Source: a virus. From it: a DNA stretch of 31,638 nucleotides. The position numbers and the translations under genes were made by a program. Of this stretch, positions 14,057 to 26,341 are shown piece after piece. Location of the stretch: IMG/VR virus record IMGVR_UViG_3300046170_000259, positions 1 through 31,638 of that record; one strand, given 5' to 3'. Every line of letters starts with the position of its first letter. Position 1 is the first letter of the stretch. The notes under the pieces are model-generated. The model made no database searches, had not been told where the DNA came from, and saw nothing but the letters and a program-made list of their open reading frames with translations.

Positions 14057-14317
14057 ATGCCAAAAGCAAAACCACAAACGGTTACAATCGACAGCAATTA
14101 CAAAGTCGAGATTGAGCCATACAATCACACGCTAATGCGGCGCAACGATAACAAGAAAACTGGCTGGGATACGATGGGCTATTACAGCACAATGGCAACC
14201 GCATTGAGAGCCATCAGCCGTGACAACGTGCTGAACGGCAGAGACTGCAACCTAAACCAATATGCCGAAGGTGTACTGGCGAGGGCATCAGACCTGCTAT
14301 GTCACAAAAACCCCTAG
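14057..14317 (+). CDS. Small protein, possibly DUF5405-like
   Basis: The 86-residue product contains YKVEIEPYNHTLMRRND, then WDTMGYYSTMATALRAISRD and a Cys-containing end. The order (beta strands, a Trp, then YYSTM-x-ALRAI) recalls DUF5405 phage proteins, but this is from memory and weak. It is the last gene before the strong terminator at 14347. It starts directly at the stop of the preceding gene. Confidence 0.62.
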   Translation: MPKAKPQTVTIDSNYKVEIEPYNHTLMRRNDNKKTGWDTMGYYSTMATALRAISRDNVLNGRDCNLNQYAEGVLARASDLLCHKNP

Positions 14318-14374: not shown

Positions 14375-15139
14375 CTAGAATGGACGCGGTAAGCCTGTAC
14401 CTTGGTCACGCCATGATTGGTCTGACTGGTCAGTCATCATAAAAGCATGAACCGCCTTTTCAATAATCTCATAGCTATAGCCCTCATCCTTATATTTTCC
14501 GAACAGCTTGCCAATAGCAGTCTTGGCATATTCTTTCTGCTTTAGGGTTAGTGTCCGACACTCAGATGCCGATTGCTGGCGATTTGAGCGTCCAGGACGG
14601 CGTTTGGCCTCTCTCCGCACCCAACCCTGCCAAAATGCCTTACACGAAGCGTATGACGCTTTATTGCCGTTTTGCTCATTCCAAAGCCTAATGTCCTCAA
14701 ATGTGTCTTCCCAATCGAGTCCGGCATCAGTTGCATATTGCTGGTCAGTGGCGTCAGGTTTCCAATCCACTAGCTTTTGCTTTTTAGCTTTCCCCTTATT
14801 ATTATTATTAACGGTTCTATTATGGTTAGTGTGTCTGTGTGACACCTCTAGAGGTGTCTGTGTGACACCTGTCAGGCTGACACCCACCATGCTCAAGCTG
14901 TACACATCGGTCTTGTTAAACCGCTTTTGCCGTTGCAAGAATCCGCTAGTTTCAAGCAGCTTTAGCTTGCGTAGGACGGTGCTGCGGCTGGCGCATGTCA
15001 TATGCTCAAGACGCTCGACACTAGGCCAAGCGTTGCCGGTGCTTTCATTGATGTGGTCAGCAACCGCTATCAGTACTAGCTTTGCCAGCGGGTCTTTTAT
15101 CTGCTGTTCAAATGCCCAGCTAACCGCCTTGATGCTCAT
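14375..15139 (-). CDS. Replication initiator with winged-helix N-terminus (lambda O-like organisation)
   Basis: The 254-residue protein has an N-terminal HTH_36-type domain (residues about 1-85: MSIKAVSWAFEQQIKDPLAK, then AWPSVERLEHMT-x4-STVLRKLKLLE-x-SGFLQRQ), a linker rich in Thr, His and Asn (residues about 95-118) and a C-terminal domain with FEDIRLWNEQNG, CKAFWQGWVRRE and a Lys-rich helix. This is the layout of phage replication proteins of the lambda O type, which bind iterons with the N-terminal domain and recruit helicase. The linker-encoding DNA carries repeats and an AT-rich tract. The gene overlaps the upstream coiled-coil gene by 4 bases and is the last of the leftward regulatory/replication unit. 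Confidence 0.75.
   Translation of the reverse strand: MSIKAVSWAFEQQIKDPLAKLVLIAVADHINESTGNAWPSVERLEHMTCASRSTVLRKLKLLETSGFLQRQKRFNKTDVYSLSMVGVSLTGVTQTPLEVSHRHTNHNRTVNNNNKGKAKKQKLVDWKPDATDQQYATDAGLDWEDTFEDIRLWNEQNGNKASYASCKAFWQGWVRREAKRRPGRSNRQQSASECRTLTLKQKEYAKTAIGKLFGKYKDEGYSYEIIEKAVHAFMMTDQSDQSWRDQGTGLPRPF
14786..14888. other. Candidate replication origin: iteron-like repeats beside an AT-rich tract
   Basis: GTGTCTGTGTGACACCT occurs twice exactly (14831-14847 and 14854-14870), 23 bases apart. The copies flank and share GACACCTCTAGAGGTGTC (14841-14858), a perfect 18-base palindrome, and a further CTGACACC follows at 14877-14884. Immediately to the left is an AT-rich tract with a repeated TTA unit (14793-14812). 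The whole sits in the middle of the initiator gene, as the lambda origin sits in O. Confidence 0.55.
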
Positions 15140-16788: not shown

Positions 16789-17622
16789 ATGACAGACTTA
16801 TTAGATAAGATGAAATCGGTAGGTGTTTACCATTTCAGTCCAAGCCAGTTAAATCGTCCATTGGCGAACTGGATGTTCGATTACGTTTACCTATCAAAAG
16901 ATAAACGCCGCGAGATTATCGTTGGTGAGAACGCCGCATTCGGTACAGCAGTTCATCAGGTTATTCAAGCAGCCGTGTGTCACGGTCAGGATATTGATGA
17001 GGCTGTAGAAGAGGCATTGACCGGCTATGATTTCCATCCGGCTAATTCATCACAAGACAAGCGCGACAAGTTCCGCGAACTAATACCAGACGCCTCTAGC
17101 GTTGGCATCGACTTACTATCTCCCTTATTTAGTGGCGCACAAGAAGAGCGCAAAATCGAGTTGATGCTAGATGGCGTACTGGTGCCTGTTATGGGTTTTG
17201 TTGACCTGTTCAAAGATGGGTCGCTGGCTGAGATAAAGACCAAAGCACCGCGTCAGGGTCAGGTCAAGAAGGACGGCACAAGAAGCTGGACTAAGGCATC
17301 ATTGCCTAAAGAGCCAGCGTGGGAGCATATCCTGCAAGCGGCAGTCTATTGGAAGGCCACTGGTGCCACGCCAAGCATTGCATATGTGTCATCGGTTGAG
17401 GGTGTCATATACAACCCAGATAACTGCGAGAAGATGTCTGAGGATGTGTTGAACTTTGCTATTGAGGAAATCAGACGCAAGGCAATCACACGGCAAAACC
17501 TATTATCGGTCAGCACTGACCCGAAAACATTAGCAGGTTTGATGGAGCCGGACTTTAATCATCCGTTCTATTGGAGCCACCAGTTCGTAAGTGAAGCAAA
17601 GGAGTTATGGAGCAATGTCTAA
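16789..17622 (+). CDS. RecB/Cas4-like exonuclease
   Basis: The 277-residue protein has the PD-(D/E)XK exonuclease pattern: FSPSQLNRPLANW near the start, FGTAVHQVIQAAV (motif with catalytic His, about residues 48-60), VMGFVDLFKDG (catalytic Asp, about 137), LAEIKTKAP (E-x-K, about 147) and a later Q-A-AVYW. Phage enzymes of this kind resect DNA ends for the annealing protein encoded next; the gene pair is a standard viral recombination module. The stop overlaps the next gene by 8 bases. AAGGAG precedes the ATG, behind the strong promoter at 16721. Confidence 0.85.
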   Translation: MTDLLDKMKSVGVYHFSPSQLNRPLANWMFDYVYLSKDKRREIIVGENAAFGTAVHQVIQAAVCHGQDIDEAVEEALTGYDFHPANSSQDKRDKFRELIPDASSVGIDLLSPLFSGAQEERKIELMLDGVLVPVMGFVDLFKDGSLAEIKTKAPRQGQVKKDGTRSWTKASLPKEPAWEHILQAAVYWKATGATPSIAYVSSVEGVIYNPDNCEKMSEDVLNFAIEEIRRKAITRQNLLSVSTDPKTLAGLMEPDFNHPFYWSHQFVSEAKELWSNV

Positions 17623-18247
17623 CGTATGGAACACACTGAGTGCTATTGATTGTTCAAAGCACGTTGAGAAGAAAAACGGATTCACCTACCTGTCGTGGGC
17701 GTGGGCTTGGAGCATTCTAAAGCAGCACTATCCGTCAGCGCAGTACACCAAGCATCTGTTTCAAGTGAACGGCAATAACCTGCCATACATGCTTGATGCA
17801 GACGGTAATGCGTATGTGACCGTTACTGTCAAGATTATGCCGGAGAATAATGCTGATAGCATCACGGCTTTGGAATCAGCTACAGAGATTATGCCTGTGC
17901 TGAACCACGCCAACCGGCCTATCAAGAACCCTAACAGCTTTGAGGTGAACGCTTCACTGCAACGCTGTATGGTAAAGGCAATCGCGGCTCTCGGCCTTGG
18001 TTGCTACATCTATGCTGGTGAGGATATGCCGATGGAATCGCCAACGGCTATGGCTGAGTCTCCGAATATTAAGTCAGATACACCAGCACCAAAGAAGATT
18101 GCTTCACCTCTCACTGTAGAGCAGGAGATAGCATTGGCTCCCAATGAAGAATCACTCATAAAACTGTACCGCCGCTTGGGGGCTGCTGCGGGGCAGTACA
18201 ATAGTTTGTTTACGAAACGTAAGAAGGAGTTAGCAGCTAATGGCTGA
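17615..18247 (+). CDS. DUF1071 single-strand annealing protein (Sak3-like)
   Basis: The 210-residue product begins MSNVWNTLSAIDCSKHVEKK, then GFTYLSWAWAWSILKQHYPS, YVTVTVKIMPE, MPVLNHANRPI and ASLQRCMVKAIAALGLGCYI. This LSW-A-W...NxRCMVKAIA-LGLG order defines DUF1071, placed among Rad52-like annealing proteins (Sak3 group). The last 60 residues form a separate tail (SPLTVEQEIALAPNEESLI). ATG 17615 was chosen over a GTG at 17591 because AGGAG precedes it. The partner exonuclease lies upstream and an SSB-tip protein downstream. Confidence 0.88.
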   Translation: MSNVWNTLSAIDCSKHVEKKNGFTYLSWAWAWSILKQHYPSAQYTKHLFQVNGNNLPYMLDADGNAYVTVTVKIMPENNADSITALESATEIMPVLNHANRPIKNPNSFEVNASLQRCMVKAIAALGLGCYIYAGEDMPMESPTAMAESPNIKSDTPAPKKIASPLTVEQEIALAPNEESLIKLYRRLGAAAGQYNSLFTKRKKELAANG

Positions 18248-18491
18248 TTACGACAACAATTTGAGGGGCGTACTGTTCCCGAATGACAAGGGTGATAACC
18301 CTAAGCGTCCTGATATGACAGGCAGTATGGAGATTGACGGCACAAAGTACCGCATCTCTGCTTGGAACAAAACCAGTCAGAAGGGCAACGACTTCTTGTC
18401 CTTTGTAGTTGAAGAGGATGACGGCAGCCGCAAGGCAGCACCAGCAAACAACGGTGCAAGCAACCAGATGGATGACGCTATTCCGTTTTAG
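18240..18491 (+). CDS. Small ssDNA-binding-type protein with SSB-like C-terminal tip
   Basis: The 83-residue product starts MADYDNNLRGVLFPNDKGDN, then TGSMEIDGTKYRISAWNKTS and a strand ending FVVEED; a flexible Ala/Asn linker leads to the last residues MDDAIPF. The core resembles short OB/DUF736-like phage proteins ('RG-LF-N-D-K...G...I-G-x-Y-x-I-SAW-K-TS-KG'). The tip matches bacterial SSB tails (consensus DDDIPF), which dock replication and repair proteins. Position after exonuclease and annealing genes agrees with an SSB role; this is inference. Confidence 0.75.
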   Translation: MADYDNNLRGVLFPNDKGDNPKRPDMTGSMEIDGTKYRISAWNKTSQKGNDFLSFVVEEDDGSRKAAPANNGASNQMDDAIPF

Positions 18492-18559: not shown

Positions 18560-18760
18560 ATGTGGAAGAGAAAAAAACCTAAGAACATTGTCAGTTCAAG
18601 AATGAGCAAATGCAGTTTCTGTGACAAAGAGTTCGATTGGATGACCACACCCGCCATAGTTAATGGAGCAAAAAAGGAGTTTTGTGGATATGAATGCTTT
18701 AGTAAGAATTTTGAAAACGCTGTTCGGCACGACTACGGAAACGACTTCGACAGTCTCTGA
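18560..18760 (+). CDS. Small zinc-finger protein
   Basis: From ATG 18560 the protein has 66 residues: a basic start (MWKRKKPKNIVSSRMSK), C-x2-C (CSFC), a DWMTTPAIVNGAKKEFC strand-turn and C-x3-C (CGYEC), so four cysteines for one zinc. ATG 18560 has AAAGGGAAG just before it; an earlier GTG at 18491 would put a 13-bp hairpin inside the coding region and has no ribosome site. The end overlaps the DnaA-like gene by about 70 bases in another frame. Function is unknown; a DNA-binding helper is plausible. Confidence 0.65.
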   Translation: MWKRKKPKNIVSSRMSKCSFCDKEFDWMTTPAIVNGAKKEFCGYECFSKNFENAVRHDYGNDFDSL

Positions 18761-19034
18761 GATAGATAAAATTATTAATGCAACGACAGAGGTAACAGGC
18801 GTCACACGCTTGCAGATGCTGTCTAAGCGCAGAGTAAAGGAATACGTTCAAGCTAGGCATCTAGCTATGTATATGGCTCGTGAGATGACCACGATGAGTT
18901 TGCCGGAGATAGGAAGAGAAATGCAGCGTGACCATACGACTGTTTGGTACGCCGCTGAGAAGCTGGCAAAGCGCGGTAGAGGCGCAACAAAGCTAAACAG
19001 AAACATAGCTAAAATTAAGCAGCTTGTAGCCTGA
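18690..19034 (+). CDS. Free-standing DnaA domain IV protein
   Basis: The 114-residue product carries, at about residues 43-92, LSKRRVKEYVQARHLAMYMA, REMTTMSLPEIGREM and QRDHTTVWYAAEKL. This matches the DNA-binding domain IV of bacterial DnaA (in E. coli: SKRRSRSVARPRQ, LPEIGDAF, GRDHTTVLHA), one residue shorter before RDHTTV. The AAA+ domain and the DnaB-binding N-terminus are missing, so it should bind DnaA boxes without being an initiator. ATG 18690 has AGGAG about 9 bases upstream. It may target a viral origin or block host initiation. Confidence 0.85.
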   Translation: MNALVRILKTLFGTTTETTSTVSEIDKIINATTEVTGVTRLQMLSKRRVKEYVQARHLAMYMAREMTTMSLPEIGREMQRDHTTVWYAAEKLAKRGRGATKLNRNIAKIKQLVA

Positions 19035-22808: not shown

Positions 22809-24821
22809 TTAAGCCTCCAGTGCTTCTATTCTTGCTGTTAATGCTGTGATTGTTGCTTGCTGTTCTTGTATGGCTGCCACGAGTAGCGGCACCAGTTTTG
22901 CTTGGTCAATTCCTTGATATTTAGGATTGCCATCGTCATCAACTTCGTTATGACTGCCAGTTACTGCTTCTGGCACAACAGTCTGCGCTTCATGTGCAAG
23001 GAAGCCGTCTAGCGTCACACTTGGATTTGCGATGAAGTTAAAGCGTTTAGGGTTGAGTTGTTTTAATCGGGCTGTGGCTCCGGTCAAATCAACCACATTC
23101 TCTTTTAGCCTGTGGTCACTAGAGGTGTTATAAGATATTGAGGTGCCACCAGAGGCAAAAATCGAACCGATTTGGGTGCCAGCTTCAGAAAAGTTAACTC
23201 TAGTTGAGTTGCCGGTGCCAGACGGTGCATTGTTGTCAGCGTAATAGCTAGAGTTTGCAAAGGCCCAATAATTCTGGTCAGAAGCCCTTTTAGGACCATT
23301 GACAACCGTATAGCTACCATCATTGACAATTCTAGGAGCACCAACCCCATCTGCTATCACGATGTTGTTGTTGCCTGTGCGGATGTCTAGGCCATTTTGA
23401 TTGCCGTTGAACCGACCAAGAATGGTGTTGTAGTTGCCGGTTGTCATTAGACTTCCTGAACTAACGCCTATGGCTGTGTTGTAGGATGCGATGGTGTTGT
23501 TTGCAAGTGCATTTTGACCAATCGCAACATTGGCACCCCCTGTTGTGTTGTAATAAAGCGCATCCTTACCAACTGCCGTGTTGCTGCCTGCGGTTGTATT
23601 AAACCTTAAAGCTGAATAACCTATAGCTACGTTATCTACGCCGCTTGTATTTGCATACCCCGCTGTGTAACCCATAGCAACATTTCTAGCTCCTGTGTTG
23701 CTGTAAAGGGCGTAGTTTCCAACAGCAGTGTTGTCGCTTTGAGTAGTAACTGAATAAAGTGATTGAAAACCAAGGGCTACGTTGTGGGTTCCGGTGGTGT
23801 TGTTTTCTAGGGAAGACTCTCCTACAGCAACATTATAATTACCGGAGGTATTGTCATATAAAGCAGAGTTGCCAAGTGCGGTATTGCTTGAGCCGGAAGA
23901 ATTAAATGCTAGAGTATAACCACCTATAGCAGTATTACCCCCGCCGGTTGTGTTAGTGGTCAATGCAATGTAGCCCACTGCTGTGTTGTTGGATGCGGTG
24001 GTGTTTGCCCTCAATGCACTAGAGCCGTAAGCAGTATTGCTGCTGCCTGTTGTATTGGCTTGCATTGCTTCATTACCAGTAGATGTATTATTATCTCCAT
24101 CAGTATTATAAAACAAAGAGTTAACGCCAATAGCGATATTGTAATTACCAGTAGTGTTTGACCTTAAAGATTTACGCCCTAGTGCTACTAATTGAGTGCC
24201 GGTAGTATTAGTATAAGCCGCCTCATAACCCACAGCCGTGTTGTTGTTTGCGGTGGTGTTGTTGTCTAAAGAGCCTAGACCTACAGCTACATTAAAACTT
24301 CCAGTAGTGTTTGCTGGTAAGGACTGGTCGCCAATGGCCGTGTTAGATGCGCCTGTAGTGTTTGCGCCAAGTGCATAATATCCTACGCCGGTATTGTTGC
24401 TTGCTGTGTTTGCATACAAACTGTAAGCACCAATAGATGTGTTTTGAGAACCTGTACTATTAGTTACTGCGTTAAACAAACCAACAGAAGTATTGTTACC
24501 ACCTGTGGTATTACCCTTACCAGCCTGTCCTCCAATAGAAGTGTTACCAGCACCTGTGGTGTTTGCAGTCAAAGCCTCAGAACCAACAGCTACATTAAAA
24601 TTTCCAGACAAGCTACCATCATCAAGCGCATCACCACCCAACGCCACATTGCCTGTGCCAGCAAGATATGCGCCGGTTACAAAGTCCTTCTGATGGCTCA
24701 TCAACTCGCGGATAGCGTTGTTCACGCCGCTAGGAAGCATACCCTCGGCAACGGAAATACCGCCAACGTCAAGGTTGTTGGCAGCGGTGCTGTCGTATTG
24801 GTACAGATTGTCTTTAGCCAT
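22809..24821 (-). CDS. Tail fibre with YadA-like repeats and S74 autochaperone
   Basis: The 670-residue fibre has an N-terminal attachment part (about residues 1-50, VAEGMLPSGVNNAIRELMSH), then about 22 repeats of 17 residues on the pattern NTTG-x-x-NTA-x-G-x-x-AL-x-x (about residues 55-470), a linker, and a C-terminal intramolecular chaperone (from S568: SDHRLKEN, NPKRFNFI, DGFLAHE) ending in a trimeric coiled coil. The repeats resemble the beta-roll of YadA-type adhesins. S74 domains cut themselves off after helping trimer folding; the catalytic Ser and Lys are present. It starts one base inside the stop of the paralogous fibre gene. Confidence 0.9.
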   Translation of the reverse strand: MAKDNLYQYDSTAANNLDVGGISVAEGMLPSGVNNAIRELMSHQKDFVTGAYLAGTGNVALGGDALDDGSLSGNFNVAVGSEALTANTTGAGNTSIGGQAGKGNTTGGNNTSVGLFNAVTNSTGSQNTSIGAYSLYANTASNNTGVGYYALGANTTGASNTAIGDQSLPANTTGSFNVAVGLGSLDNNTTANNNTAVGYEAAYTNTTGTQLVALGRKSLRSNTTGNYNIAIGVNSLFYNTDGDNNTSTGNEAMQANTTGSSNTAYGSSALRANTTASNNTAVGYIALTTNTTGGGNTAIGGYTLAFNSSGSSNTALGNSALYDNTSGNYNVAVGESSLENNTTGTHNVALGFQSLYSVTTQSDNTAVGNYALYSNTGARNVAMGYTAGYANTSGVDNVAIGYSALRFNTTAGSNTAVGKDALYYNTTGGANVAIGQNALANNTIASYNTAIGVSSGSLMTTGNYNTILGRFNGNQNGLDIRTGNNNIVIADGVGAPRIVNDGSYTVVNGPKRASDQNYWAFANSSYYADNNAPSGTGNSTRVNFSEAGTQIGSIFASGGTSISYNTSSDHRLKENVVDLTGATARLKQLNPKRFNFIANPSVTLDGFLAHEAQTVVPEAVTGSHNEVDDDGNPKYQGIDQAKLVPLLVAAIQEQQATITALTARIEALEA

Positions 24822-26341
24822 TAGTTAGCCTCCAGTGCGGTAATACGCGCCTCTAGTTCTTGTATAGTCTTAACGAGCAACGGCACCAGCTTAGACTGGT
24901 CGATGCCTTGGAAATCCGGCACAGACCGTGTACCCATAACCGCTGGAATTGCCTCTGTAAGCACGTTACCTTCGTCATCATAGGTAGCTTCGACTGCTGG
25001 TGTGACCTCGTATTCCTCGTCCATCATTGCGTCTTTAGTGCCGCTGATAGCCTCTGGAACAATGTCCTGAACTTCGTGTGCTAGGAAACCATCGACTGTG
25101 GTATCTGCGTCAGCGATAAAGTTAAAGCGAACAGGGTTGAGTTGCTTGAGGCGTGTGGTTGCATCCCAAGTTGCTGTTACGTTTTCTTTGAGGCGGTAGT
25201 CAGATGTCGTATTGTAGGATGTTGATGAACCGTTTGTTGTGATTGACCCTCTTAGTCCTTGACTTGTGCTGTCAGCAAACCACATTTGATAACGAGTGCC
25301 ACTATCTCCTCTATTCCAACACGCTATAACTTCAGAAGATGCACCACTTGAGAAAACAGCAAGTCCTTTGATGCCATCTATTTGAGCAGCCATAGAACCA
25401 CTCCATTCGTGTGCAGTAGAACCTACCAATAAACTACCGGTGCCGCTGGTGATACGCATACGTTCTGTGTCTGATGTTCCAGTGTGAAACTGAAGTGCGT
25501 CACTTGAACTTGCACAAATGATTGAGGCTCTTTTATTGTTGCTTCCGTCCTCCCAGCCAATCCTTGCTGAGTCACCGTTGCCTTGAGCCATCGTCAGGCC
25601 AAACTGTGGGGTTGTGTGTCCAATGCCCAAATTCCCTGCCGGAGTCAGTAGCATTTTGTTTTGACCAGACAGTGATGGATAGCCGTCTGATTTATACGCA
25701 AAACTTAATGAATTTTCAGTAACTCCACCGCCATCATCATAGCCAACAGCCCAGTTTCCTGCGGTTTGGCCTTGACTAAATACCATCTTGCTGTCGCCTG
25801 CGGAATGAGTTTCCAGAGTTAATTGAGCGTCGTCTGAAGCACCTTGGTCAATGTGGACTATGCTTTGCGGCGAACTCGTCCCAATGCCCACGTTGCCGCT
25901 AATAAATTCAAATTGAGAAGAAGCAAACTGCATTGGTATGTTTGCTGAACGTGCATCATTTAGTGCAGACAAACGCAAAGTGCTACTAGCGTTTTCAACT
26001 TCAAAGTTTAAATTTGTACCAGCTTTAACGTGAAGTTTAGTGTTTGCCGCAACTGTACCTGTACCAATGCCCACGTTGCCGCTGCTGTCCAGCGTCATCG
26101 CAGTGCTTGTAGCGTTATCGTCAATGCCTTGTGAGGTAAATGCACCTGTAACAGTCAAGCTATCAGCGGAAGGACTTTCCAGCGCAACCGCGCCGGTAGA
26201 CACGTCCTTTAGGTCGGCCATAACCTCGCGGATGGCGTTGTTAATGCCAGCCGGTGAACAGCCCTCGGAGATGTCGATGGACTGGATATCGGTGTTGCTG
26301 CTGTTCGTAGCCGAATAATCGCGGATACTGTTCTTTGCCAT
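24821..26341 (-). CDS. Tail fibre with S74 autochaperone (second fibre)
   Basis: The 506-residue protein shares its start with the neighbouring fibre (ISEGCSPAGINNAIREVMAD) and its C-terminal S74 domain (S380 in SDYRLKEN, NPVRFNFI, DGFLAHEV), but its middle is different: repeated SGNVGIGT-type segments (DSSGNVGIGTGTVAA, SGNVGIGTSSPQS, AGNLGIGHTTPQ) and mixed beta sequence. It is probably a second receptor-binding or branch fibre made by duplication. The S74 domain carries an extra acidic insertion (about residues 435-475). GGAG precedes the ATG. Confidence 0.9.
   Translation of the reverse strand: MAKNSIRDYSATNSSNTDIQSIDISEGCSPAGINNAIREVMADLKDVSTGAVALESPSADSLTVTGAFTSQGIDDNATSTAMTLDSSGNVGIGTGTVAANTKLHVKAGTNLNFEVENASSTLRLSALNDARSANIPMQFASSQFEFISGNVGIGTSSPQSIVHIDQGASDDAQLTLETHSAGDSKMVFSQGQTAGNWAVGYDDGGGVTENSLSFAYKSDGYPSLSGQNKMLLTPAGNLGIGHTTPQFGLTMAQGNGDSARIGWEDGSNNKRASIICASSSDALQFHTGTSDTERMRITSGTGSLLVGSTAHEWSGSMAAQIDGIKGLAVFSSGASSEVIACWNRGDSGTRYQMWFADSTSQGLRGSITTNGSSTSYNTTSDYRLKENVTATWDATTRLKQLNPVRFNFIADADTTVDGFLAHEVQDIVPEAISGTKDAMMDEEYEVTPAVEATYDDEGNVLTEAIPAVMGTRSVPDFQGIDQSKLVPLLVKTIQELEARITALEAN

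Follow-up and report, generated by a model that had tools for sequence, protein, structure and literature searches.

A lambda-type replication origin candidate carried within the HTH_36 initiator gene of a phage

The window, by which we mean the whole stretch of 31,638 nt that was analysed (virus record IMGVR_UViG_3300046170_000259, positions 1 to 31,638), may be a fragment of a larger genome and contains structural phage genes, including those for an SU10-type portal and a capsid. At its centre of interest is a gene for a putative replication initiator, which is the last gene of a leftward operon and is faced by convergent genes ending at 14317. In the window, the initiator gene is not followed by a helicase loader resembling lambda P, a search of the window for Rfam families and tRNAs gave no match, and the DnaA box TTATNCACA is absent from it. 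GC skew, which an earlier sequence-only reading of this DNA had proposed as a check for an origin, tracks gene direction along the window and speaks neither for nor against one. The plus strand also encodes DnaA domain IV alone, without the ATPase part (Bac_DnaA_C, E=1.1e-23; 18663-19034), a phage product that might compete with or redirect the host DnaA, and a recombination cassette (16789-18491) that consists of a PDDEXK nuclease-like gene, a Sak-type single-strand annealing protein (PF06378, E=1e-42) and a small ORF, which may code for an SSB-like protein. On the minus strand, two large proteins (22809-26341) share similar C-terminal ends (LKQLNP.RFNFIA...DGFLAHE), and one of them displays many imperfect NTTG-type repeats; they are probably tail fibre or spike proteins.

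The initiator matches Pfam PF13730 HTH_36 at residues 17-68 (E=9e-10, 38.7 bits with a cut-off of 25), and it is also recognized as phrog_1032 'replication initiation protein' (E=7e-20, 73 bits) and phrog_391 'replication initiation O-like' (E=3e-15). The Pfam family Phage_rep_O (PF04492) was not matched by the protein, with Pfam matches taken up to E=1, and the profile of the window initiator's family missed both lambda O and P22 gp18. The gene has an A+T content of 51% and its linker reads, in gene sense, GTGGGTGTCAGCCTGACAGGTGTCACACAGACACCTCTAGAGGTGTCACACAGACACACTAACCATAATAGAACCGTTAATAATAATAATAAGGGG.

The part of the gene that encodes this linker, behind residues 1-82 of the HTH domain, harbors an array of iterons that spans nt 256-310 of the 765 nt of the gene. 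On the plus strand, GTGTCTGTGTGACACCT occurs twice as a perfect direct repeat of 17 bases, at 14831-14847 and 14854-14870, and GACAC/GTGTC arms extend as far as 14884. The unit that is repeated, a dyad of 17 bp, reads GGTGTC-ACACA-GACACC in gene sense and consists of two 6-bp arms around a 5-bp spacer (GGTGTC-N5-GACACC); it is present in two good copies, 23 nt apart, and a degenerate one, at whose position the close relatives L002-L006 carry GGTGTCACACAGACAGG. All the elements reported in the sequence-only reading, namely the 17-base direct repeat, the 18-base palindrome, the GACAC arms and the A+T-rich tract, were recovered at the locus, and the array does lie inside the linker-coding part of an HTH initiator gene and adjoin the A+T-rich tract (Table 1). 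The palindrome was considered as an independent element and rejected, since it is made up of the right arm of one iteron and the left arm of the next.

Table 1. Coordinates of the initiator gene and of the elements located within it.
Feature	Position	Strand	Description or basis
Initiator gene, 254 aa	14375..15139	-	N-terminal winged HTH (HTH_36), iteron-encoding linker, C-terminal domain
DNA-binding domain, residues 1-82	14894..15139	-	HTH_36 match; profile ungapped versus E. coli CRP HTH
Recognition helix SRSTVLRKLKLLE, residues 51-63	14951..14989	-	Covariation with arms; aligned with CRP S179-R185
S53 codon	14981-14983	-	Residue covarying with iteron arms
R57 codon	14969-14971	-	Residue covarying with iteron arms
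Iteron 1, degenerate	14868..14884	-	GGTGTC-AGCCT-GACAGG (gene sense); sequence and relatives
Iteron 2, perfect 6-5-6 dyad	14853..14869	-	GGTGTC-ACACA-GACACC; sequence, synonymous constraint
Iteron 3, 16/17 copy	14830..14846	-	GGTGTC-ACACA-GACACA; frame differs from iteron 2
18-bp palindrome GACACCTCTAGAGGTGTC	14841..14858	.	Junction of iterons 2 and 3
A+T-rich tract, 72.5% A+T	14790..14829	-	Directly 3' of iterons (gene sense); candidate unwinding element

The repeat array is real and non-random. When the gene was shuffled 2000 times with the protein and the codon usage kept, the longest nearby direct repeat never exceeded 13 nt (17 nt were observed), a palindrome of at least 18 appeared in nine shuffles, and two GTGTC-N5-GACAC dyads appeared in only one. 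Moreover, comparison with relatives indicates that selection acts on the DNA itself, as synonymous change is reduced and one DNA word is read in two frames. In a comparison of seven full-length close relatives that share one length, the window being one of them, synonymous differences per comparable codon pair amount to 0.206 for the HTH and 0.220 for the C-terminal part. They fall to 0.030 for the iterons and 0.036 for the A+T tract, about six- to seven-fold lower than elsewhere in the gene, and none of 20000 codon permutations matched the observed constraint. The good copies of the dyad are translated in different frames, yielding GVTQTP and EVSHRH from a single DNA word, and the dyads of 137 related genes occupy all three frames (221/91/91). 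Changes in the arms are also compensatory among relatives, where GTGTC...GACAC becomes GGCTC...GAGCC. The synonymous constraint thus stands out beyond the conservation of the protein, which agrees with the earlier proposal of a DNA function under selection. The idea that the linker is especially free to vary did not hold in close relatives, where its amino-acid difference per codon pair, 0.106, lies between the values for the HTH (0.086) and the C-terminal part (0.148).

Arrays at the same position seem to be a property of the whole family. Of 50 non-redundant initiator genes selected only for the similarity of their proteins, 23 contain at least two dyads that share a 5-bp arm and have a 5-nt spacer, where codon shuffles predict 0.1, and the number of dyads across spacer lengths peaks at a spacer of 5. 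When 26 of the remaining genes were read by eye, nearly all had arrays, with arms that were other or imperfect, and recurrent 6-mers were significant in the linkers of only 38 of the 50 genes, a count that overlooks arrays of two or three copies. Intact initiators devoid of repeats, which the sequence-only reading had named as evidence against an origin, are accordingly scarce among these 50 relatives; a possible exception to the pairing of initiator and array is Salmonella phage SI8 (L197, gene 2001-2633), whose HTH is intact and whose linker, inspected by eye, has no recognisable array. In a diverged group with about 33% HTH identity (L032, L036, L037 and relatives), two GTGTCACACAGACAC dyads lie some tens of bases apart and flank an A+T-rich tract, one on each side.

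The pairing is also found when the DNA pattern alone is the starting point. Blind scans of 2.9 million viral contigs for tandem GTGTC, GTGCA or GGCTC dyads detected at least 119 stretches with GTGTC-N5-GACAC (3 with a permuted arm), at least 120 with GTGCA and at least 55 with GGCTC. Among the matches listed, the ORF running through the dyads encodes an initiator domain in 54 of 84 GTGTC, 66 of 113 GTGCA and 17 of 48 GGCTC loci, and in none of the three loci of the permuted-arm control. ORFs through the GTGTC dyads, clustered at 80%, formed 72 clusters among the matches listed, window excluded, of which 60 match phrog_270 'replication initiation protein', 55 match HTH_36 and 4 match Phage_rep_O (PF04492). 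The dyads from the blind scans lie behind the initiator domain by a median of 70-77 nt; within the family their spacing clusters at 21-24, 33-34 and 44-45 nt, close to two, three and four turns of the helix, and 120 of 137 genes have a raised A+T content on the 3' side of the array. In bacterial genomes, an initiator domain (NTD match) accompanies 16 of the 118 stretches with the GTGTC pattern, the rest being mostly unrelated repeats. The chromosome of Alicyclobacillus sp. ALC3 (L284, L285, L291, L303 and others), for instance, has long arrays with a period of about 82 bases that contain GTGTC-N5-GACAC dyads and are apparently unrelated to initiator genes.

Comparison of the initiators with the repeats in their own genes reveals that the recognition helix and the iteron arms covary. 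In a table of 102 non-redundant proteins, in which the arm class of some protein-selected genes was assigned by eye, position 53 (window numbering) is occupied by Ser in 31 and by Arg in 9 of the 42 proteins of the GTGTC class, by Arg in all 48 of the GTGCA class and by Ala in 11 of the 12 of the GGCTC class, whereas position 57 holds Arg in all 42 GTGTC proteins and in 11 of 12 GGCTC proteins, and usually another residue in the GTGCA class. Mutual information with arm class, computed on the blind set only (90 proteins retrieved solely through the DNA pattern), is highest for S53 (z=31), followed by R57 (z=17) and L56 (z=7), with all other positions below 5. The identity of the NTD outside the helix is 30.4% within arm classes and 28.8% between them (0.304 and 0.288) and, thus, the classes are not simply clades. 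As the family profile aligns ungapped on the E. coli CRP HTH, window R52, S53 and R57 correspond to CRP Arg180, Glu181 and Arg185, which make specific base contacts (PMC12531629). The protein tree, built from about 70 columns and therefore weak and poorly resolved, requires at least 25 changes of arm class and, owing to this poor resolution, offers only four well-supported independent contrasts of GTGCA versus other arms; in these, residue 57 is concordant and residue 53 is never discordant, and tree-based sign tests on the four supported contrasts are not significant. Among the 16 initiators from bacterial genomes, which are independent of the discovery of the rule, 10 have S53 and 15 have R57.

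Since the recognition helix and the arms covary, direct binding between initiator and repeats is supported, and there is strong indirect evidence that each initiator would bind the repeats in its own gene; the window initiator almost certainly recognizes the window iterons. Moreover, a family-wide rule is likely to operate at positions 53 and 57, by which Ser and Arg would specify GTGTC, Arg and a non-Arg residue GTGCA, and Ala and Arg GGCTC. The two positions of the rule, equivalents of CRP Glu181 and Arg185, would set the half-site for the iterons of the same gene. No family-wide rule that ties two helix residues to iteron arms was found in the open-access literature, most subscription journals lying outside the scope of the search.

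A natural recombinant provides another view of this relationship. The locus of L007 has flanks 76-90% identical to the window, and from residue 123 onwards the C-terminal part of its protein shares 94% identity with that of the window. Its HTH, iterons and A+T tract have, nevertheless, been exchanged as one block for a different N-terminal domain and linker, with no GTGTC dyad left in L007 and its own iterons not identified. In this replacement the DNA-binding domain has travelled as a unit with its sites, L007:5599-6432 being a natural chimeric initiator gene.

Several other explanations of the array have to be considered. The most serious one is that the initiator binds the iterons mainly as an intragenic operator, for repression or timing of its own gene, and that replication starts elsewhere; autoregulation is frequent among HTH proteins, and evidence of binding does not by itself establish origin function. 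However, some 255 nt of the ORF separate the site from its start, away from any 5' promoter, an operator would have no use for an A+T tract that is enriched across the family and shows synonymous conservation, and the blind matches are dominated by families annotated as replication initiators, so that this explanation is considered unlikely. That the array serves another protein, in recombination, packaging or partition, and sits in the gene by chance or linkage, is highly improbable: palindromic repeats are generally known at att, pac and par sites too, but the protein whose gene surrounds the repeats is the one whose recognition helix covaries with them, and L007 exchanged HTH and repeats together.

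Two further explanations dispense with a DNA-binding site. The repeats might reflect a constrained or repeated peptide linker, as they are inside an ORF and related GVTQTP peptides recur in relatives, yet a single DNA word gives different peptides in different frames, synonymous sites are nearly frozen, codon shuffling abolishes the repeats and the arm changes are compensatory; we give this explanation hardly any credence. Chance similarity within a low-complexity stretch is more improbable still and practically negligible: GTG and CAC words are common to arms and spacers and could slightly raise chance pairing, but the shuffle tests and the recurrence of the array across dozens of diverged phages argue against it.

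The locus is, therefore, very probably the core of a lambda-type replication origin, made up of iterons and an unwinding tract inside the gene of its own initiator. Such a candidate had been put forward from the sequence alone, and it gained support from every comparative test run, i.e., conservation, position, geometry and covariation. The small size of the array, with two good copies and one weak one compared with four in lambda, counts against an origin, as do the missing P-like loader, the missing PF04492 match, the case of L197 without an array and the presence of the DNA pattern in unrelated repeats of bacterial genomes. By analogy with lambda, the winged HTH, probably as a dimer, would bind each 17-bp dyad through 6-bp half-sites separated by the 5-bp spacer. 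As the dyads are about two helical turns apart, the bound dimers could stack on one face of the DNA and distort it; the adjoining A+T-rich tract would open next, and the C-terminal domain may help to recruit the replicative helicase. Covariation supports the first of these steps, the binding of the winged HTH to the phased dyads; dimer formation, unwinding, helicase loading and origin activity itself would take place as in lambda.

If the recognition rule holds, origins and their specificity could be read directly from the genomes of many uncultured phages, in which a short DNA pattern would locate candidate replication origins and two initiator residues would predict the repeat that is read, and initiator and origin would travel as one self-contained module. 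According to a 2024 review, the structure of the O-iteron complex is unsolved (PMC10797057) and, hence, a rule based on coevolution opens initiator specificity, origin incompatibility and the swapping of modules to direct tests.

Origins located inside initiator genes, with phage-specific iterons, have been described in lambda, P22 and phage L (PMC8022706), a source that, in the portion available, notes the diversity of iterons for these three phages and contains no residue-level rule linking helix and iteron. In lambda, the four iterons are inverted repeats that are bound by dimers of O and precede an A+T-rich region of 40 bp (PMC5043065); in vitro, two iterons are enough if they adjoin the A+T tract (PMC7466680). 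Lambda ori resembles the window in having its array in the initiator gene behind the N-terminal DNA-binding domain and an A+T-rich tract on the 3' side. The lambda iteron is also a dyad with arms of about 6 bp and a 5-bp spacer (TCCCTC-AAAAC-GAGGGA), like the 6-5-6 unit of the window, and its spacing of 20-24 nt in gene O matches the roughly 22-bp phasing of the window family. However, the arm sequence is different, there are four iterons rather than three (one of them weak), O is not detectably related by profile and the window protein falls outside Pfam Phage_rep_O. In addition, lambda has P directly downstream of O, an arrangement that is not universal, whereas the window lacks an adjoining P gene. 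As in the window, gene 18 of P22 and gene 18 of phage L, which encode distantly related initiators, contain their own repeats within the coding region, those of P22 giving a 5-5-5 dyad (GGTAA-AACAT-TTACC), although the arm sequences of both phages differ from those of the window.

Within the window initiator's own group, the HTH_36 initiators of phrog_1032, phrog_391 and phrog_270, arrays occupy the corresponding position in several named phages, with separate arm sequences in each initiator clade: Pseudanabaena phage Pam5 has GGTCA-GAATG-TGACC three times, Pseudomonas phage vB_Pae_U2 has GTGCA-ACGGT-TGCAC twice, and Phage C72C1, whose initiator is 43.5% identical to that of the window, has TGACAC-type arms. 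Iteron plasmids (RK2, F and R6K Rep) also have tandem initiator-binding repeats that adjoin an A+T-rich region. Nevertheless, plasmid iterons are bound by initiator monomers and lambda iterons by O dimers (PMC5043065), and the window repeats are dyads as in lambda, unlike plasmid iterons. Since lambda, P22 and phage L already show this architecture and lambda also shares the geometry, the window element can be regarded as a new case of a lambda-type origin, well supported on comparative grounds, whose initiator belongs to a family other than Pfam Phage_rep_O.
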